64,000 nt of DNA from positions 1,240,001-1,304,000 of the forward strand of contig NZ_WKJP01000001.1 in assembly GCF_009674585.1 (NCBI RefSeq), given 5' to 3'. This document shows, piece after piece, positions 3,515 to 56,088 of this stretch. This DNA is from Haloferax marinisediminis (GTDB lineage Archaea > Halobacteriota > Halobacteria > Halobacteriales > Haloferacaceae). A model generated the notes under the pieces. It was not told where the DNA came from. It ran no database searches and was given only the letters and a program-made list of their open reading frames with translations. Both the position numbers and the translations under genes were made by a program. Position 1 is the first letter of the stretch. Each line of letters begins with the position of its first letter.

Positions 3515-4332
3515 TCGAGTTTTCCAAGCGCTTCGAAGAAGTCAGAGGTTGGGCCAGCGAGTCGAACTGGCGAGTCGGACTGCTCGATGCGAACCTCGAT
3601 TGGTGTCGAGACAGTCCGGCGGGTCCGTCCGTCACCCACGACGACGGCTGACTCGGCGTCTGTGACCGTCACAGTGACCGTGGCATCGAGTGGGACGACG
3701 AGCGACGGCATCCCCTCACGTGCAGCCATCTCGGTGACGACGAGTCCTTCGACGCCGGGATGGACGAGCGGCCCACCTTCGCTGAGGTTGTAGGCTGTAC
3801 TACCCGCAGGCGTCGTGACGAGAACGCCGTCTGCGTGACCGCCGGAGTAGAGCGAGCCGTCGACACGGATCTCCACCCCTGCACCCCCACCGTGGCCTCG
3901 TCGAGGGCCGTGGACGACGACTTCGTTCATCGAGGGGTCCATCTCCCAGTCGTCCCCGCGGGCGACGATACGCGGAACTTCGCGGACCGACGGCGTCCCG
4001 TCTCGGAACGCTGCGACTTCGCTCAACACTTCGTCGATTGCGTCGTCGGGAGAGACGGCGTTCAAGAACCCGACCTCGCCGAGGTTCACGCCGAGGATGG
4101 GGACGCCGTCTGCACCTCGTGCAGCGTAGAGAAACGTCCCGTCTCCCCCGATGCTCACCACGAGGTCACACTCGTCGAGCCGCTCGACTGGGAACCCACC
4201 GACGTCTAGTTCCTCGGCCGTCGCCGCATCGACAACCGCTTCGACATCGACGGCCGCCAGCGCCTCGCGCATGTCTGCGGCGAGGTACGCGGCCCGACTA
4301 TTGCCCTTCTGCGCGACGATGCCGACCTTCAT
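3511..4332 (-). CDS. nadK: NAD kinase
   Basis: It phosphorylates NAD to NADP using ATP or polyphosphate. The 273-residue protein contains the family motif SIGGDGTFLYAAR, which binds ATP and holds the catalytic Asp. It is followed by GVNLGEVGFLNAV and the NEVVVHGPRRG region, and by TPAGSTAYNLSEGGPLVHP, the NAD-binding signature. The start was placed at 4332, where MKVGIVAQKGN begins; a longer frame adds nine residues that do not look like the family. The gene is convergent with the SDR gene, and the two stop codons share bases. Cytosolic enzyme; identification is secure. Confidence 0.96.
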   Translation of the reverse strand: MKVGIVAQKGNSRAAYLAADMREALAAVDVEAVVDAATAEELDVGGFPVERLDECDLVVSIGGDGTFLYAARGADGVPILGVNLGEVGFLNAVSPDDAIDEVLSEVAAFRDGTPSVREVPRIVARGDDWEMDPSMNEVVVHGPRRGHGGGAGVEIRVDGSLYSGGHADGVLVTTPAGSTAYNLSEGGPLVHPGVEGLVVTEMAAREGMPSLVVPLDATVTVTVTDAESAVVVGDGRTRRTVSTPIEVRIEQSDSPVRLAGPTSDFFEALGKLD

Positions 4333-4470
4333 AACCCGCGGTTTGACGCCACCGGGCAAAAGCCCACCGTCACGTCACCACGAAAGACTGACACGGGAAA
4401 CGTTCATGACATCCCCTGCCCACGTTGAACTGATGGCAGGCACGGACGGTGGCCTCTCTGTTCGGCCGAG

Positions 4471-5571
4471 GTGGTCTCCGTGAGCGACGACGACGACTGG
4501 TTCGAGCGGGCGCTCCGCGAGCGCCGCGACGACACGGACGAAGCCGCCGCCGACCCAGAAACTGTGGAACTGGACGACGAGAACCACGACCACGCCGATA
4601 GAGACGGTCGCAGTGACGACGAGAGCGCGTCGGGTTCGCCGGCGAACGACTCGGATGGAGCGGCAGCGCCAGCCGACTCGATGGAGAACGCGGGCGACGA
4701 CCCGTTCTCGACGAACTTCGCGGAGGCGTTCAAAAACGCGCCGATGCCAGACATCGGCGATTCCGACGACGAATTCGGTGGGTCCGCCGGCAGTGGGATG
4801 GGCGACGACTTTCACTTCGACAGCAACGCGACCCGGGAGTCACTCCAGTTCGACGACGACGACTTCGAGTCGGACATCGACCGCATCGACATCGGCATCG
4901 AAGGACTCGACGAGATGATTCTCGGCGGCGTCCCGGAGCGGTCGCTCATGGTGACGATTGGGAGTGCCGGGACCGGCAAGACGACGTTCGGTCTGCAGTT
5001 CCTCTACGAAGCGCTCAAAAACGGAGACAACGCCGTCTACATCACGCTCGAAGAGAGCCGCAGTCGTATCCTCGACACCGCCGACGAGAAGGGCTGGCAG
5101 TTCTCGGAGTACGAAGCCGATGGAAACCTGGCAATCGTCGATTTGGACCCCGTCGAGATGGCCAACAGTCTCTCCAGCATTCGCAACGACTTACCTCGCC
5201 TCGTCGACGAGTTCGACGCCGACCGTCTCGTCCTCGACTCGGTCTCACTGCTCGAGATGATGTACGACCACCCCTCGAAGCGCCGGAGTGAAGTGTTCGA
5301 CTTCACGCGCTCGCTGAAAGATGCCGGTGTGACGACTATGCTCACCTCCGAGGCAGACCAGACGAATCCGTACGTCTCTCGACACGGCATCGTCGAGTAC
5401 CTCTCCGACGCGGTGTTCGTCCTCCAGTACGTCCGTCCCGACGACTTCCGAGAGACGCGACTCGCAATCGAGATACAGAAGATTCGCGATGCCAACCACT
5501 CTCGAGAGACGAAACCGTACGAACTCACGAGCGAGGGAATCAGCGTCTACCGGCAGGCGAATATCTTCTAA
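4471..5571 (+). CDS. KaiC/RecA-superfamily ATPase with long acidic N-terminal extension
   Basis: This 366-residue protein has two parts. Residues 1 to about 135 are acidic low-complexity sequence rich in D, E, S and A, probably disordered. From about residue 140 there is a single KaiC-type RecA domain: RIDIGIEGLDEMILGGVPE, then Walker A GSAGTGKTTFGLQF (about residues 163-176), then a hydrophobic Walker B-like strand DRLVLDSVSLL. The C-terminus ends in the family-like ELTSEGISVYRQANIF. In haloarchaea such proteins are often labelled HTR-like or RAD55-like, and their partners are unknown. It starts at a GTG; a second GTG three codons later (4480) is also possible. It is probably ATP-dependent signalling or scaffolding; no direct functional evidence exists here. 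Confidence 0.85.
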   Translation: MVSVSDDDDWFERALRERRDDTDEAAADPETVELDDENHDHADRDGRSDDESASGSPANDSDGAAAPADSMENAGDDPFSTNFAEAFKNAPMPDIGDSDDEFGGSAGSGMGDDFHFDSNATRESLQFDDDDFESDIDRIDIGIEGLDEMILGGVPERSLMVTIGSAGTGKTTFGLQFLYEALKNGDNAVYITLEESRSRILDTADEKGWQFSEYEADGNLAIVDLDPVEMANSLSSIRNDLPRLVDEFDADRLVLDSVSLLEMMYDHPSKRRSEVFDFTRSLKDAGVTTMLTSEADQTNPYVSRHGIVEYLSDAVFVLQYVRPDDFRETRLAIEIQKIRDANHSRETKPYELTSEGISVYRQANIF

Positions 5572-5578
5572 CTCCACC

Positions 5579-5583
5579 TTTTT
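5579..5583 (+). terminator. Oligo-T terminator after the KaiC-like gene
   Basis: A T5 run lies eight bases after the stop codon of the KaiC-like ATPase gene. Archaeal RNA polymerase terminates at such runs without needing a hairpin. The hairpin array that follows begins only nine bases later and may contribute. Confidence 0.5.
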
Positions 5584-5591
5584 CTTCGTCG

Positions 5592-5834
5592 GGGTCGCTA
5601 CGCGACCCGCTCTTCACGGGCGACCCGCGAGTCGCCCGTGAGGAAGCGAGACGGTGGTTCCGTCTCGCCCTCCTCGAAAAAGCTGTCTTCGTGAGCGTCA
5701 GCGAACGAAGGCTCGTGAGACGCGAGGCGTCTCACGGTGGACCACTGCTAGAAGTCACCGACTTCTGGCCGTTCAGCCAGAACGCGGCGCGTTCTGGCGA
5801 CAAAAAAGGCCGAACCTCGCTTCGCTCGGTTCGG
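5592..5834. repeat. Array of eight consecutive perfect or near-perfect hairpins
   Basis: This non-coding stretch of 243 bases is almost filled by short palindromes with tiny loops. They lie at 5592-5608 (7-bp stem), 5614-5641 (11-bp stem), 5646-5668 (9-bp stem), 5687-5710 (6-bp stem), 5714-5736 (10-bp stem), 5750-5766 (7-bp stem), 5776-5798 (10-bp stem) and 5810-5834 (7-bp stem). Most loops are 3-6 bases. The stems differ in sequence, so it is not a tandem repeat or a CRISPR array; what is conserved is the structure and spacing. The function is unknown; a transcript through it would fold into a chain of stem-loops. Confidence 0.8.
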
Positions 5835-5854
5835 TGCAGTACACTTGTTGGAGG

Positions 5855-6046
5855 TCAGGGAACTCGCCAGATCCTGTTGAAATCATCTGTCACTGACACT
5901 TCGTCGAGACCGTGCTGGATAGAGGGCGCGAGTCGGTCACGCGGTTGAATGAGTAGGTCGGCGATGCCACCGCTACTCAAGAGCCGTTTTTTCCGTTTGG
6001 TTGCTCCAGTACGTCTGGTAGTCCCACTGGTCAGTCCTGTTCTCAC
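5855..6046 (-). pseudogene. Probable insertion-sequence transposase relic
   Basis: The minus strand encodes a short open stretch containing IQPRDRLAPSIQHGLDEV. A 37-base piece of it (5911-5947) recurs in more decayed form at 7575-7611 with 27 of 37 bases identical. The second copy would encode Q-F-I-D-stop-F-A-C-S-I-Q-H, matching the first at Q, D, A and SIQH. Two decayed copies on either side of one gene suggest relics of the same IS family. The family itself was not identified. Confidence 0.35.
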
Positions 6047-6319
6047 TGTAAGTTGGCATATAGCAGCAGTTGTGTATCATATGGGAGTGATTTAATCGAT
6101 AGACTAACTGGCCGAGTCCTCGCACTGCGACGAATACGTGTCTGTTACTCCAGACTGACCTGATTTTAGAATGTCACAAGTTCGAGACAGATTTAACTGG
6201 TAAAGATATAACTCAGGTCCTGACATTCTGGTCATCGTAACTTTTCGCCACTCATGTGCGCTCTCGACGTAGGGTCGAGGTTCTGTGTGCGGTTTGGGGG
6301 GTTATACACTACACTACAT

Positions 6320-7342
6320 ATGTCGAACCAAAACAATTCTCCAGTAGACGGAACCGACAAGACAGGCGTCGAACACACTGGCCCTGAACTTTCGCGGCGC
6401 TCCGCGCTTCGTAGCCTCGCGGGTGCGGGCCTACTCGGTCTGGTCGGCCTCCCGGCGATGGCCGGGTCAGTGAGTGCATCTTCGTCCTCGTTCCTACACA
6501 GCGGTTCGTGCTCGAGAATCACCGGCGTCGGAGTGGGCCGCAACGGAACGTTCACGCCCGTCGACGCGCCCGCGATGGTTTCTCCATATCACGAGAGTGG
6601 TAACCCCCCGTGGGGCAGTGTCTTCAGCGCTGACGCCCAGCACGTGTGGTACTGCCCATCCGGGACGTGTGATCTTTATCAACCCGCAGACGAACGAATC
6701 CGCCTTGAGCAGACGTTCGACCTCGATATGGTGCCGAGTACAGCGACGCTCTCCGTCGCCGCGGACAACACAGCTGAGATCTATCTGAACGGCACTTTCG
6801 TACGCACTGTCGGATACTACCCACCGATGGTCGGGCAGGACGTCGTTCCCTTCCTACAGACCGGCGAGAACACTCTCGAGATACGCGCGTGGAACGACCC
6901 AATGTACGGTGACACACCTGCGGCAATCATCTTCGAGATGAAGGCACCTCTCCCACCGCAGAGCTGTGAATCAACCACTATCGACGTCAACATCGACATC
7001 AAGCCCGACAGTGACGACAATTCCATCAACCCGAACTCGAAGGGAGTCACCCCCGTCGTGGTCTACTCGACCGACGATTTCGACGCGACGACGCTTGACG
7101 TCTCTTCACTCGCCTTTGGCCCTGGCGGTGCGAGCGCGGCCCACGGCGGCCACGTCGATGACGTCGATGGAGACGGCCTGATGGACCTCGTGCTACACTT
7201 CCCGACTCAAGACGCTGGCTTCGCCGACGGCGACACCGAGGCCAACTTGGTCGGGCAGACCAACGATGGCACGGACGTTGTCGGGACCGACGCGATCAAA
7301 ACTGTCGGCGGCAAAGGTAAGAACAGAGGCCGCGCTCGCTGA
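6320..7342 (+). CDS. Tat-exported cell-surface protein with C-terminal EF-hand-like domain
   Basis: The 340-residue product begins with a hydrophilic stretch and a twin-arginine signal (SRRSALRS followed by AGAGLLGLVGLPAMAG), so it is exported folded. Residues about 70-215 resemble a galactose-binding-like beta-sandwich (ATLSVAADNTAEIYLNG, then EIRAWNDP). The last ~110 residues form a domain seen in many secreted proteins: VNIDIKPDSDDNSINPNSKG, then HVDDVDGDGLMDLVLHF, whose DxDxDG loop probably binds calcium. The start was set at 6320; a longer frame from 6254 adds 22 residues ahead of the signal without Tat character. It is flanked by two IS relics, which hints at an accessory, possibly acquired gene. 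Ligand or enzymatic activity is unknown. Confidence 0.8.
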   Translation: MSNQNNSPVDGTDKTGVEHTGPELSRRSALRSLAGAGLLGLVGLPAMAGSVSASSSSFLHSGSCSRITGVGVGRNGTFTPVDAPAMVSPYHESGNPPWGSVFSADAQHVWYCPSGTCDLYQPADERIRLEQTFDLDMVPSTATLSVAADNTAEIYLNGTFVRTVGYYPPMVGQDVVPFLQTGENTLEIRAWNDPMYGDTPAAIIFEMKAPLPPQSCESTTIDVNIDIKPDSDDNSINPNSKGVTPVVVYSTDDFDATTLDVSSLAFGPGGASAAHGGHVDDVDGDGLMDLVLHFPTQDAGFADGDTEANLVGQTNDGTDVVGTDAIKTVGGKGKNRGRAR

Positions 7343-7642
7343 GGATTCGTACCGTCGACGTTCTGAAAAGCGACATTTTTTCTCTGCGCGAAGTTGTTCC
7401 GGTCTGTCCCAATGTGCAGAACCCGTTGATCGTTGTATCTCAAAATTCCGAAAAAGTGCAGTGATGGGCGCCTCGTCCGGTAACCGTCACTCCGTAACGC
7501 TCGGAACTCAATAGTGAATACACCCTCTGAGTGTTGCACATCACTTCTGACAGCAACTGGGTCGCTTTCAGCGGCGTGCTGAATAGAGCACGCGAATTAG
7601 TCAATGAATTGCCTTTTTGTACGGTGCGTCTAAGTATCGGAC
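7343..7642. other. 300-base gap with IS-like repeat fragments
   Basis: It contains the T6 terminator, a palindrome-rich piece at 7575-7592 (CGTGCT-GAATAG-AGCACG) that is part of the second IS relic (7575-7611), and a TATA-like TTTTTGTAC around 7614-7622. The TATA-like element lies 26 bases before the small membrane-protein gene. The fragment at 7512-7537 resembles 7796-7819 beyond that gene. Confidence 0.5.
7376..7381 (+). terminator. Oligo-T terminator after the exported-protein gene
   Basis: A T6 run sits 34 bases downstream of the stop codon, on the coding strand, in an otherwise non-coding region. Confidence 0.5.
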
Positions 7643-7789
7643 ATGTCTCACCCCCACCCGATTGAAGTCTTCATTCCGGTGGTGTTCTTCGGTGGTGTCG
7701 GCTATCTGGTAGCAGGCCCCCTTGCAGCAGGTGTGGGAGTGGTCGTGGGTGCTGCATTGGGAACTTCAATTGGAAAATCAGAGTCGTAG
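7643..7789 (+). CDS. Small glycine-rich membrane protein (48 aa)
   Basis: This short open frame encodes 48 residues starting MSHPHPIEVFIPVVFFGG. Most of it forms one or two hydrophobic, glycine/valine-rich segments (residues 8-41), ending GTSIGKSES. A TATA-like element is centred 26 bases before the ATG, as expected for a leaderless haloarchaeal transcript. Decayed repeat fragments lie on both sides. It is probably a single-pass or hairpin membrane peptide. The function is unknown, and the gene could be part of the IS-related debris. Confidence 0.5.
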   Translation: MSHPHPIEVFIPVVFFGGVGYLVAGPLAAGVGVVVGAALGTSIGKSES

Positions 7790-7884
7790 CCTGTACTGAA
7801 TACACTCTCAATTCAGCACGCGATTTCTCTCAGTTGGTGCGCATCTCAACGGGCCAGTCGATGTTATCGACGCCATCAACGCAT

Positions 7885-8736
7885 TCAGACCGCTTCACTC
7901 ACCTCGTCAGCCACTCGGGAGTGCCGCCCTCTCGGAACCGCGAGGACGAACCTAATGGCCAGCGTCGCGGCGATGGCTGCCGGCAGGACCGTGAACACGA
8001 CGACGACGAGCGAAACCGTCACCTCGCCTGCGGTAAACAGCAGGAACGTCGCGAGCGTCAGCGTCGGTGCGAGAACCGCACCAAACACGAGGCTGATTCC
8101 AGCGAGCGTGTACCCCCACAGTCTCCCTTGCCAGACCCAGATTCCACTGACAGCGAGTGCCGGAACGACGACACTGAGGTCGAGGAAGTGCGAAATCATG
8201 GCCTGTGGACCGACTTCCGCGACGAGGAGTGGGGCCGACCCCGTGAGCGTGGCGGGAACGACTTCGGAGAGCCACAAGAACGCCAGCCCCAGTGCAATCA
8301 CGAGCAAGAACACGCCGTAGACGCGCTCTGTGATGTGTCCCGCTAGCGTGTCGTGAATCTCTCTCGCGTCGGTGGTCACGACCCCGCCCACGAACGTGAA
8401 CAGCGAGAGCGAAAAGAGTGCGACGTACCCGAGGAAGAACTGATTGAACGCAACCTGCAGGCCAATCGACGCCCACATGTACGTCATGTACGCGAGCGAC
8501 CCGAGCCAGACGATTCGCCCCCGGAGTGACCCACGCATCGTAAACCAGAGACCGAGTGCTAACATGGGAACACCGACTGCGAGCATCATCAGATCCTGTG
8601 CGAAGTACGTCGGGAGCAGGGCAGGGACGTCGTTGTAGTGCCCCGGCCGAAAGAGGCCTAAGAGGGCCGAAATGACAGACAGCACGACGAGTACGCTTGT
8701 CGTGACGACCTGCCAGCCTCGAATGAGCGTCGTCAT
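7885..8736 (-). CDS. Polytopic membrane protein, about eight TM segments
   Basis: The 283-residue protein is mostly hydrophobic. Eight membrane segments can be read, starting with WQVVTTSVLVVLSVISALLG and ending with FTVLPAAIAATLAIRFVL near the C-terminus. There is no signal peptide beyond the first helix, and no ATP-binding or catalytic motif was recognised. Charged loops are short. The tail HSRVADEVSEAV is polar and cytoplasmic-looking. It stands alone between the small ORF and the nitroreductase gene. Family and substrate are not recognised; transport or a membrane-embedded enzyme are both possible. Confidence 0.8.
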   Translation of the reverse strand: MTTLIRGWQVVTTSVLVVLSVISALLGLFRPGHYNDVPALLPTYFAQDLMMLAVGVPMLALGLWFTMRGSLRGRIVWLGSLAYMTYMWASIGLQVAFNQFFLGYVALFSLSLFTFVGGVVTTDAREIHDTLAGHITERVYGVFLLVIALGLAFLWLSEVVPATLTGSAPLLVAEVGPQAMISHFLDLSVVVPALAVSGIWVWQGRLWGYTLAGISLVFGAVLAPTLTLATFLLFTAGEVTVSLVVVVFTVLPAAIAATLAIRFVLAVPRGRHSRVADEVSEAV

Positions 8737-8901: not shown

Positions 8902-9573
8902 TCAGTCGTCGGCAGGCGCGGGGACGGCCTCGCGCTCTGGCGAGAACTCCTCGTAGTGGACGACTTCGTCGACAGGGCGGCGGTATTTGGGCTCAGCCTG
9001 CAGTTCACCGGCGTCTTCGGCGGGAATACCCATCGTCAGAAGCATCACGGGTTCGTACTGGTCGCCGTCGATGTCGAACGCATCGAGGACGGCGTCGGGG
9101 TCGAAGCCACCGATGGCGCAGGTGGCGACACCTTCGTCCCACGCGGCGTGCATGAGGGCCATCGAGACGAGTGACGTCGAGCGAACGGTCCAGACGCGGC
9201 GTTCCTGCTCGGGCAGGTCGGCCATCCCGGCGATGTTTCCGAGGATGTCGTCGCGGACCTCCTCGTTCGGGAGGTAGCCCTTTTCGAGCATGTCGTCGGC
9301 GATGGTTTCGGCGTGTGCTTCGGGGTCTTTGTTGCCGAGGATGACGACCGACGCGGCGGCACCGGTGACGTGTTCTTGGTCGTACGCTGCTGCCCGGAGT
9401 GCCTCTTGAGTCTCGTCTTCACGGAGGACGACGAACTCCCACGGTTGCAGGTTGTAACTCGACGGTGCTTGAATCGCATTCTCGAAGATCGTTTCGAGCG
9501 TCTCGTCGTCGAGCGGTTCGTCTGCGTATTCGTGGATGGAACGGCGGGTCGTCGCAACCTCTTTGAATTCCAT
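8902..9573 (-). CDS. Nitroreductase family protein (FMN-dependent)
   Basis: This 223-residue flavoprotein-type sequence begins with MEFKEVATTRRSIHEYADEP, the N-terminal FMN-phosphate-binding RRS(I/V) motif of nitroreductases. It continues with APSSYNLQPWEFVVLR, the conserved substrate/FMN pocket. Near the C-terminus is a glycine-containing loop (LLTMGIPAEDAGE). Such enzymes reduce nitro compounds or quinones, or act in reductive dehalogenation, using NAD(P)H and usually as dimers. The physiological substrate cannot be inferred. A strong TATA element at 9593-9603 makes a leaderless start at 9573 likely. Confidence 0.92.
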   Translation of the reverse strand: MEFKEVATTRRSIHEYADEPLDDETLETIFENAIQAPSSYNLQPWEFVVLREDETQEALRAAAYDQEHVTGAAASVVILGNKDPEAHAETIADDMLEKGYLPNEEVRDDILGNIAGMADLPEQERRVWTVRSTSLVSMALMHAAWDEGVATCAIGGFDPDAVLDAFDIDGDQYEPVMLLTMGIPAEDAGELQAEPKYRRPVDEVVHYEEFSPEREAVPAPADD

Positions 9574-45118: not shown

Positions 45119-45499
45119 GTGTCTGCAATGACAGACTACCCAGTCCACAGATAAAAGATGACGAGATTGTTTCACTATCTCGCTGACATAGCTGTTGGTT
45201 TACGTGACTGTGTTGCGAAGGTTAGTTGATGGTTGAGGCCTTCACGGGTGCGTATTCGGGGCTCTTTGTGATTTTCCAGTATCAATGATTGTTTCTCTCA
45301 GACTGTTTCGATTAACTGTCATTGTGTGGATATAATTCGGGGATTTGACACTCTCTCGTCACTTTATTAAGAGTATCTTGACAAATGAACTGACGAGTTT
45401 CGGTGACTCTTTGCTCGGTGGATATGTGCTTCGTCTCCACTGACCAGAGCGATACACGAAAGCCGAGCAACTCCTTCAGCACCGTCGAGAGAATGGATA

Positions 45500-45519
45500 G
45501 GTTAGGGCAGATTCGAACT
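45500..45519. repeat. Copy of the 3' end of tRNA-Val (19 of 20 bases)
   Basis: GGTTAGGGCAGATTCGAACT here matches 45692-45711 of the tRNA gene with one difference. An inverted 13-base copy of the same T-arm segment lies at 45599-45611. Duplicated tRNA 3' ends are typical attachment-site remnants of integrated elements. Confidence 0.6.
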
Positions 45520-45611
45520 TTGTGAGACTGTCATCTCACGTGCTCACGCTCGCGTTGCTCGCGTGAACCTCACTCGCAAATCAGAGATTTGCTCGCTGGT
45601 TCGAATCTGCC
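45506..45611. repeat. Inverted repeat of tRNA T-arm sequence enclosing smaller hairpins
   Basis: The arms 45506-45518 and 45599-45611 are perfectly complementary over 13 bases and carry the tRNA-Val T-arm. Inside are at least three smaller inverted repeats: GTGAGA/TCTCAC (45522-45539), CACGC/GCGTG (about 45545-45565) and GCAAATC-AGA-GATTTGC (45576-45592). The style resembles the hairpin array at 5592-5834. Confidence 0.55.
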
Positions 45612-45689
45612 GTCATCATTTTCGATTCCACAGACTCCTCACCTCGCTCACGATGTTCGCTCCGCTCGAAGTTGCGAGGAATCAGAAAA

Positions 45690-53320: not shown

Positions 53321-54745
53321 TTATTCTTCGTCCGCTTCGAGCGATTGCCAGGAGAGTCGCGGGTTCCGGGCCGCAGACACCTGGTCGATACGCCGAGCGC
53401 TCGTCTTCGAGGGCGCAGTTTCGAGCGCCTCGTCAGAGTCTGCATAGGCAGCGTTGAAGGCGTGAGCGAGGTCGTCGAGCGACGCCTTGTCTTCGACTTC
53501 CGTGGGTTCCGTGAGCATCGCCTGTGAGACGAGTTCGGGCCACTTCGTCGTCGGTGGGTGGACACCGTAGTCGAGCATCCGCTTTGCCACGTCTGCGGCG
53601 TCGCGGTCACCCGATGTCGCCGCGAACTCGTGGTGGAACGGTCCGTACGGGACCTCCAAGTCGATTTGCGAGGCGAGGTAGTTCGCGTTCAACACGGCCT
53701 TCGCGCTGGCGTCTGCGAGTCCCTCGTCGCCGAGGCGGGCGATGTAGGCGTACGCCTTCACGAGGACGAGCCAGTTACCGGCGAAGCCGTGGACCTTTCC
53801 AATCGAGGACTCGGGTTCGTACTGTTCGTACCCGGCCGCAGTCTCGCGGACCATCGGACTCGGGAGGTACTCGGCGAGTTCTTCGACGACACCGACCGGA
53901 CCTGCGCCCGGTCCGCCACCGCCGTGGGGCGTGGCGAACGTCTTGTGGACGTTGTAGTGCATGATGTCGAAGCCCATGTCACCGGGGCGAGCACGTCCGA
54001 GAAGTGCGTTGAAGTTCGCACCATCGTAGTAGAGCAAGCCACCCGCCTCGTGGACCATCTCCGAAATCTCGACGATGTCACGCTCGAACAGGCCGAGCGT
54101 GTTCGGGTTCGTGAGCATGAGCGCGGCCGTCTCTTCGGAGATGGCAGCTTCGAGTGCCTCGATGTCGACTCGTCCCTCCTCGTCAGAGGGGAGTTCGACC
54201 ACGTCGTACCCCGCCATCGCGGCGGAAGCGAAGTTCGTCCCGTGCGCAGACGCCGGGATGATAATCTCCGAGCGGTCGTCGTCACGGGCCTCGTGGTAGG
54301 CTTTCGCGATGAGGATGCCGGCGAACTCACCAGCAGCGCCTGCTGGCGGTTGGAGCGTCACCGCGTCCATGCCGCCGATAGTCGCGAGGTACTCCTGCAG
54401 GCCGTGGAGCAGGCCGAGCGTCCCCTGAATCGTCCGGTCAGACCGGTCGGGGTGGACCGCTGCATTGGGGTCGCCGGCGACGTCCTCGGTGAACGACGGG
54501 TTGTACTTCATCGTACACGACCCCAGCGGGTACGGCCCCAGTTCGACGCTGTAGTTCATCTGCGACAGGCGCGTGTAGTGGCGCGCCAACTGAGGTTCCG
54601 AGAGGCCCGGCAGCGTGAGTTCGTCACGCGTCAGGTCGTCGGGGAGGACACCATCGGCATCGACTTCGACGGTAGTGCTGTCCTTTTCGGACAGAAGCGG
54701 TTCGTAGACGTCGTCGCGGCTGAATCGGGCTTGGTCGAAGTTCAT
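53321..54745 (-). CDS. gcvPB: Glycine dehydrogenase (decarboxylating) subunit 2
   Basis: This is the PLP-binding half of P-protein, which decarboxylates glycine and passes the aminomethyl group to the lipoyl group of H-protein. The 474-residue protein shows the family sequence LLYYDGANFNALLGRARPGD, then the PLP lysine in DIMHYNVHKTFATPHGGGG. Earlier it has LGSCTMKYNPSFTEDVAGD. Archaea split P-protein into two chains, as here. It begins where subunit 1 ends, with a one-base overlap (TGATG). Confidence 0.96.
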   Translation of the reverse strand: MNFDQARFSRDDVYEPLLSEKDSTTVEVDADGVLPDDLTRDELTLPGLSEPQLARHYTRLSQMNYSVELGPYPLGSCTMKYNPSFTEDVAGDPNAAVHPDRSDRTIQGTLGLLHGLQEYLATIGGMDAVTLQPPAGAAGEFAGILIAKAYHEARDDDRSEIIIPASAHGTNFASAAMAGYDVVELPSDEEGRVDIEALEAAISEETAALMLTNPNTLGLFERDIVEISEMVHEAGGLLYYDGANFNALLGRARPGDMGFDIMHYNVHKTFATPHGGGGPGAGPVGVVEELAEYLPSPMVRETAAGYEQYEPESSIGKVHGFAGNWLVLVKAYAYIARLGDEGLADASAKAVLNANYLASQIDLEVPYGPFHHEFAATSGDRDAADVAKRMLDYGVHPPTTKWPELVSQAMLTEPTEVEDKASLDDLAHAFNAAYADSDEALETAPSKTSARRIDQVSAARNPRLSWQSLEADEE

Positions 54746-56088
54746 CAGGCTACCTCCTCGAAGGCCGCGACGAGATCGTCTGCGGCGTCGGCGTTCGCCT
54801 CCGTGATACAGACCTGAATGTGGTGGTCGTCGAGCGCGTGGACCGCGAATCCACGACCTGCGAGGTCGTTCGTAATCGCCGGAGCGGGTTGGTCAGTGTA
54901 GGCGACGAACTCCCGGAAGTGGTGGCGGTCGTACACCGGTGCTTTCACACCCGAGATATCGTCGAGACGCTCCGCGAGGTCACGTGCGTTGACGACGGCG
55001 TCTTTGGCGACGTCGACGAGGCGGTCCGGGCCGAGCCACGCGATGTGCATTGCCGTTCGGAGTGCGACCCACGCCTGATTCGTACAGATGTTCGACGTAG
55101 CTCGCTCCTTGCGGATGTGCTGTTCGCGGGTCTGGAGCGTCAGCGTGAACGCTCGCATGTCTTCGGCGTCTTCGGAGACGCCGACGAGGCGGCCGGGAAC
55201 CTGTCGGAGGAAGTCTTCGCGGGTGGCGAAGATACCGAGGCCCATGCCGTACGCCGACCCGATTCCGAGTGCGCCTGCTTCGCCGACGACGACGTCGGCA
55301 CCGACGCTCGCGGGTTCTTGCAGGAGCGAGAGGGCGACGACGTCGCTTCCGAGACAGAACAGCGCGTCGTTCTCGTGGGCGATGTCGCCGATGTCGGCGA
55401 GTCGCTCTTCGATGACGCCCCGAACGGTCGGACTCTCGGCGTAGACCATCACCGTCTCGTCGTCGACGAGGTCGGAGAGGGCGTCGACGTCGACAGCACC
55501 GTCGTCCATCGGGTACTCCCCGATTTCCATGTCGGCACCGTCGAGGTAGTTCTCGAGGACGCCCAGACGGCCTTCGTGGATGTGTTCGGGGACGAGGACG
55601 CGGTGGCCACTCGCACCGCGTCGGAGGCGGTTTGCGAGGAGTGCGGCCTCAGCGAGGGCCGTCGCGGCGTCGTACATCGAGCAGTTCGCCACCGGGAGGC
55701 CGGTCAGTTCGACCAGCATCGACTGGTACTCGAAGAGCACCTGCAGGAAGCCCTGCGCAATCTCTGGTTGGTACTGTGTGTACGAGGTGAGGAACTCCGA
55801 GCGCCGCGAGAGGTCGTCGACCAGTGCCGGCACGTAGTGGGCGTGGTGACCACGTCCGAGGAACTCGGTCAGTTCTTCGTTTCGGGCGAAGAGGTCCGCG
55901 AGAGACTGTCTGAGTTCTCGCTCGCCGGTCGGGTCGATGCCGAACTCGTCGTCGAAGCGGACGTCTTCGGGGATGTCGAAGAGGTCTTCGACGGAGTCGA
56001 CACCGACTGCGTCCAGCATGTCGGCCTCGTCAGCGTCTGTGTGTGGGGCGTACGGGCTTCCGACCCGTCGTCCATTTCCAGCGGTCAT
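54745..56088 (-). CDS. gcvPA: Glycine dehydrogenase (decarboxylating) subunit 1
   Basis: This is the second chain of the split P-protein (447 residues). Family features: [40 protein letters not shown], and [20 protein letters not shown]. It lacks the PLP lysine, as expected, and forms the heterotetramer with subunit 2. It is preceded by gcvH, one base away, and followed by gcvPB with a one-base overlap. Clear operon membership. Confidence 0.95.

Follow-up and report, generated by a model that had tools for sequence, protein, structure and literature searches.

Mobile hairpins of the REP type are known from bacteria; short intergenic palindromes of the REP, BIME and REPIN kinds have been linked to termination and to the transposition of single-stranded DNA (PMC2817692, PMC3116915), and bacterial hairpin clusters have been tied to termination as well (PMC8355165). 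The PATEs of the haloarchaeon Haloquadratum are transposase-free and palindromic, insert without target duplication and in some cases measure about 52 bp; they are tied to IS605-type transposons, with the palindromes near the transposon ends (PMC3119063). For Haloferax volcanii, TTTTTC behind stop codons is described as the intergenic termination signature, and both T-stretch and some hairpin terminators are reported (PMC7237163). Finally, it is known from chemistry that DNA mini-hairpins whose GNA or GNNA loops are closed by G-C pairs, such as d(GCGAAGC), are extraordinarily stable (PMC4686876).

The locus presented here is an array of eight hairpins in Haloferax marinisediminis, contained in the window (the whole 64,000-nt stretch of DNA that was analysed). 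The array probably arose by accretion, with a terminator scaffold being loaded with mobile two-hairpin DNA cassettes, of which cassette C could be followed through many genomes. With the REP/BIME/REPIN elements the cassettes share the form of intergenic two-hairpin units, the arrangement in mosaics and the compensatory stem changes. However, the two hairpins of C are not inverted copies of each other, their stems vary widely among copies, no associated Y1 (RAYT) gene was found in this genome, and the GTAG foot is absent from C (judged by eye). The foot of the C hairpin is GTC, and CGTC arises only where the flank ends in CG. All of the PATE properties first listed above are shared by C, whereas a tnpA/tnpB link is missing and C is absent from a genome that is presumably Haloquadratum (G019). 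By the features compared, cassette C falls outside both groups, although these are its nearest analogues. A comparable and apparently independent family is found in the intergenic DNA of most of an archaeal order, and no description of these two-hairpin units was met in the literature searched, with subscription journals lying largely outside that search.

Architecture of the array behind the kaiC-like gene

The eight hairpins occupy positions 5592–5608, 5614–5641, 5646–5668, 5687–5710, 5714–5736, 5750–5766, 5776–5798 and 5810–5834. A preliminary description made from the letters alone had reported eight hairpins in 243 bases, and these proved to be real: at a stem length of at least 7 bp, seven hairpins were counted in the array, and none of 1000 dinucleotide-preserving shuffles, the randomisation by which that description could have failed, contained more than three. 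The folding z-score was −8.6 as RNA and −8.7 as DNA, with none of 200 shuffles being equally stable. The array was also the densest in a 464-kb genome sample (the window plus 20 pieces of 20 kb each, including three picked for holding array relatives), with 64 paired bases per 280-nt window against 39 in the next densest place.

The array directly follows a gene for a KaiC-family ATPase (4471–5571, + strand; PF06745, E 6.5e-55; close matches in 14/14 congeners), as had been proposed. Its placement before IS relics was not confirmed, as judged by Pfam alone: the next two open reading frames, 6254–7342 and 7885–8736, had no Pfam match. Farther on lies a nitroreductase gene (8902–9573, PF00881). 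In several congeners the kaiC orthologue directly abuts an apparent nitroreductase gene on the opposite strand (judged by eye), which suggests that the genes on either side of the array site probably converged until other DNA came to lie between them. A CRISPR or tandem repeat was rejected, in line with the preliminary description, with the array units having no common sequence at regular spacing. A coding function was likewise rejected, as the two overlapping GTG open reading frames (80 and 85 aa) are usual in GC-rich DNA.

Comparison with other genomes resolved the array into a mosaic of hairpin H1, three two-hairpin cassettes (B, C and D) and a final hairpin E, i.e., 1+2+2+2+1. Partial matches were found at four further places of the own genome and in 39 of 59 related genomes; they split into five blocks, A to E, with block E taking in the A-run before the last hairpin, and the order of the blocks was constant wherever they were seen together. 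The stems are indeed unlike each other inside the array, but each hairpin or pair has a recurring family elsewhere. Below, G-numbers denote compared genomes (G000 being this one) and L-numbers compared loci. Scaffold module A begins with a T-run at the 3′ end of the kaiC-like gene, CCACCTTTTTC (5574–5584, +), identical in L009, L010, L116 and L129 and similar in L034, and continues with H1 (5592–5608, GGGTCGC-TAC-GCGACCC). This hairpin recurs beside a gene that we take, from its protein sequence, to be gatD, with the loops TAC in G000, GTA in G001 and G003, and GGA in G010. Cassette B (5611–5668), two hairpins with GGAA between them, has relatives in G010, G020, G021, G029, G004 and G006. It is followed by an A-run and CTG (5677–5685, +), which the comparison with unfilled scaffolds identifies as the left half of the target CTG^GACC; the unfilled form, AAAAAnCTGGACCAAAAA, is present in L004, L116, L129 and L130. 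Cassette C itself spans 54 nt (5686–5739, +; 82.9 bits with covariance model R1) in the form T-hairpin1-GCT-hairpin2-GTG, and the right half of the target, GACC, comes directly after it (5740–5743, +). Cassette D (5744–5801) comprises the hairpins at 5750–5766 and 5776–5798, then GAC; its relatives in G020 and G021 have GCCAGAA..TTCTGGC pairs, and relatives also lie 3′ of the G020 kaiC orthologue. A T-run on the opposite strand, AAAAAAGG (5802–5809, + strand reading), common to L009, L010 and L034, precedes module E (5810–5834, CCGAACC-TCGCTTCGCTC-GGTTCGG), whose hairpin G005 and G010 also carry behind their kaiC orthologues. Elsewhere, the blocks occurred as A-B-E (G010), A-B-D (G021), C-E (G013) and A-E (G001 and G003). 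In addition, D-like hairpins with unlike stems form arrays of several units, without T-runs, in L122 and L123 of G016.

Without its cassettes, the scaffold consists of CCACCTTTTTC, H1, AAAAAnCTGGACCAAAAA and hairpin E. The T-run at 5579–5583 and the A-runs at 5677–5681 and 5802–5807 flank the array hairpins, and TTTTTC (5579–5584) stands 7 nt past the kaiC stop codon, a T-stretch followed by C behind the gene end as in the H. volcanii signature. In contrast to the H. volcanii T-stretch terminators, the T-runs of the array are opposed, with hairpins and inserted cassettes between them. Since each A-run reads as a T-run on the opposite strand, the scaffold that H1, E and these runs form is taken to be most likely a two-sided transcription terminator behind the kaiC-like gene. 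The suggestion of a termination barrier thus stands as far as the flanking runs go, while the terminator role is putative. A second type of scaffold, TGAAAGGGGC ... GGGGCTTTC, surrounds C at L178–L180 (G034), L185 (G096) and L165, and a gene tail with its terminator is tandemly duplicated at the hairpin scaffolds L108 (G010), L205 and L207 (G002 and G001).

Filled and empty sites of cassette C

At the kaiC locus, the arrangement was A-E in G005 and G010, A-B-C-D-E in this genome, and A-D plus a last hairpin in G020, which belongs to another genus. The gatD locus carried A-E in G000, G001 and G003, A-B-E in G010 and A-C-E in G009, so that cassette B is present at this orthologous site in G010 and absent in G000, G001 and G003. 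At 380.8 kb of this genome, C lies within TTTTTGGTC^CAG, while seven congeners (G001–G007) have an unfilled double T-run; in an eighth (G008) the scaffold was unrecognisable. L108 of G010 holds one terminator in two tandem copies, one filled with C and the other empty. A further C site, at 2075.0 kb, was left out of the filled/empty comparison, its right flank being non-syntenic in congeners.

The sister species G085 and G095 (L163 and L266) carry C as an exact 51-nt in-frame insert in a gene that is presumably trpA, judging by its protein sequence. The insert amounts to 17 codons with an apparently open frame; 10 of the 12 homologues aligned, including five from the same genus, lack it. Defining C as T-hairpin1-GCT-hairpin2-GNG explains the entire length difference. 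At L170 (G096), the same junction, GGTC^CAG, is used in the opposite orientation. No target duplication was evident at the trpA, L170 and 380.8-kb sites; at CTG^GACC sites, a 2-nt duplication of TG is indistinguishable from C's own end. The filled and empty sites show C to behave as a mobile unit that enters as an exact block of 51–54 nt, and parsimony favours its gain over its loss at the polymorphic sites. Cassettes B and D are likely mobile in the same way, few copies of either being available and the B junctions being unclean. The preliminary description had also considered an element that spreads, or is copied, in hairpin form; for C the spread holds, and copying in that form is presumed. 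Insertion of C into terminators takes place at a fixed junction; in one case a biosynthesis gene was entered, and no transposase is evident.

Range and genomic position of cassette C

The covariance model of C found 10 places in the own genome and matched 84 of 98 relatives, representing 14 of the 17 families. These relatives had between 1 and 53 matches apiece, which are minimum copy numbers, as no more than 52 candidates were scored in any genome. When genomes were drawn evenly across the phylum, C turned up in 21 of the 24 order members listed in that draw and in 1 of 124 others, where the single match had an E of 4e-4; one genome (G075) gave seven matches in the survey of relatives and none in the draw, in which 34 of its candidates were scored. 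Among the genomes searched, C hardly occurs outside the order. Moreover, an IUPAC pattern for hairpin 1 matched 41 stretches in 84,980 species genomes, all from haloarchaea by title. Carriage by plasmids or viruses was rejected on two weak negatives, i.e., no match of the array (a short query) in plasmid and phage collections and no match of the exact hairpin-1 pattern in viral contigs. The genes beside C were ordinary chromosomal ones in all ten cases tested, e.g., Hjc, RIO1 and NMD3.

Of 74 C copies, 2 lay within predicted genes, 3 had no neighbour and 69 were intergenic, with 20 between convergent genes, 35 between genes of the same direction and 14 between divergent ones. The background of 215 own-genome gaps of at least 100 nt was divided into 34, 102 and 79, respectively, a rough comparison with one genome set against copies from many and genes called by a crude codon-usage method. 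C is mildly shifted toward gene ends. Since its presence at convergent genes is only modestly above background and 14 of the 69 copies lie between divergent genes, a terminator role is not general. Within about 15 nt of the 69 copies, A-runs stood on both sides in 29 cases and T-runs in 4, while 26 had none. The window holds a degenerate second copy of C (45511–45574, − strand; 30.6 bits, E 2e-7). This copy is enclosed by a perfect outer inverted repeat of 13 bp, GGCAGATTCGAAC / GTTCGAATCTGCC (within 45470–45630), with three inner hairpins, and the arms of the repeat resemble a tRNA T-arm.

Folding of cassette C and rival readings

In an alignment of 26 C copies (from 29 candidates, three spurious ones being dropped beforehand), double changes were found at 16 of 17 pairs and 98.0% of cells were paired, a level reached by none of 500 shuffles; when the structure was slid along the alignment, paired cells dropped to 31–47%. 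The 98.0% is inflated because the copies had been chosen by stem pairing, so that the double changes are more informative. Constancy is highest in unpaired parts of C, namely the GT before hairpin 1, the GA..GA beside the cap, the GCT between the hairpins and the terminal GTG. The loops of hairpin 1, counted in 68 parsed copies of 71 unique ones (three unparsed copies being left out), were GNA in 39 of 44 triloops and GNNA in 18 of 23 tetraloops, 14 of the latter being non-GNRA. At 40 element loci, GNA or its complement TNC made up 24 of 43 triloops, while the genome sample had 30 of 183; the counts mix related copies, and their Fisher p-value should therefore not be read as a true probability. 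The hairpin caps are mostly GC-GNA-GC or GC-GNNA-GC and in this resemble the stable DNA mini-hairpins; the difference is that those are known from chemistry, whereas here the motif is the constant part of a genomic family.

Loops were also found inverted with the stem kept: that of hairpin E in G005 compared to G000 and G010 at the orthologous kaiC locus, and that of H1 in G000 compared to G001 and G003 at the orthologous gatD locus. In addition, one stem of the trpA copy shows a compensatory change, G-C to C-G, between G085 and G095. Taken together, covariation, DNA-type loops, loop inversions and the compensatory change in trpA point to folding as DNA, which falls short of proof.

It is rather unlikely, on our estimate, that the hairpins are instead terminators or mRNA-stabilising RNA structures selected for pairing and spread via recombination among terminators. 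The framework of T-runs agrees with this, as do the T-stretch and hairpin terminators of H. volcanii (PMC7237163) and the bacterial hairpin clusters tied to termination (PMC8355165). However, the T-run precedes the hairpin in both directions of transcription rather than following it, the loops are GNNA rather than GNRA, and the trpA copy sits in a coding frame without terminator homology. Moreover, among 408 pairs of C hairpin 1, T-G (6) was no commoner than C-A (5), although RNA would tolerate G-U; these numbers are small. Rfam covariance models gave no match at E ≤ 1 within positions 4000–8000 of the window. A structured RNA, as the preliminary description had considered, is less likely, because the loops obey a DNA rule and Rfam gave no match at the array. 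A search of 16 related loci with Rfam returned a single match, the leuA-Halobacteria RNA (RF03001), which lies in L122 at 1452–1504 near the array of D-like hairpins.

We regard it as similarly doubtful that the hairpins act as cruciforms of DNA, taking up supercoils or obstructing polymerases in the way proposed for BIMEs, and that arrays accumulate for this reason. The DNA-type loops and their inversion would suit such a function, as would the mild excess at convergent genes, but many copies of C are not in convergent regions.

Improbable, too, is an origin of C, B and D as non-autonomous IS200/IS605 remnants of the PATE type that a Y1 transposase moved in trans. Like elements of the IS605 type, C has two subterminal hairpins, prefers a certain junction and inserts without target duplication, and 52-bp terminal-only PATEs of Haloquadratum are described as possibly mobilised (PMC3119063). 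Against this, Y1_Tnp (PF01797) had no match in this genome or in G010, G013, G041, G096, G089 and G058; it was absent in 7 of the 10 genomes richest in C, the exceptions being G065, G034 and G067 with 1, 3 and 10 matches. C was carried by 37 of 44 Y1-free genomes, and across 98 genomes its copy number was unrelated to the Y1 count (Spearman −0.10, p 0.32). Conversely, the Y1-rich G019 lacks C, its 10 Y1 matches including several with internal stops. A full C (E<1e-4) was found at 0 of 30 tnpB loci, which came from 10 of the 12 genomes searched, and by this comparison no relation of the palindromes to the ends of resident IS605-type transposons was found. A linkage of C to tnpB or Y1 transposases was accordingly rejected; an IS200/IS605 mover is not supported, although it may act rarely or have acted in the past.

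The accretion reading, which is preferred, can be worded as a sequence of steps. A two-sided terminator (TTTTTC, H1, A-runs and hairpin E) would have stood 3′ of the kaiC-like gene, and cassettes of families B, C and D would have been added to it successively, B and D presumably moving as C does. C may move as a folded single DNA strand, by means of an enzyme acting in trans or by hairpin-primed template switching during replication. Its arms would be kept complementary either by the copying of one arm onto the other or by a need of folding for copying. Such accretion may also account for the dense clusters of hairpins seen in genomes of haloarchaea. With both empty and filled sites available and Haloferax being tractable, the spread and the upkeep of pairing in transposase-free hairpin repeats become testable. 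A bolder proposal, offered tentatively and with low confidence, is that C is the prototype of order-wide transposable units of 51–54 nt with two hairpins, which need no dedicated transposase: the folded single strand would be captured and copied by the machinery of replication or repair, and each hairpin would rewrite one arm from the other, so that the sequence drifts and the fold persists.

Chance or a composition artefact, to which a GC-rich genome with common background hairpins (955 in the 464 kb against 738 in shuffled sequence) might lend itself, is refuted by the 0 of 1000 shuffles, the z-score of about −8.6 and the conservation of the families across the order. A second, weaker hairpin cluster at 55130–55400 of the window lies within a predicted gene (54745–56019, − strand) and is probably due to codon usage.
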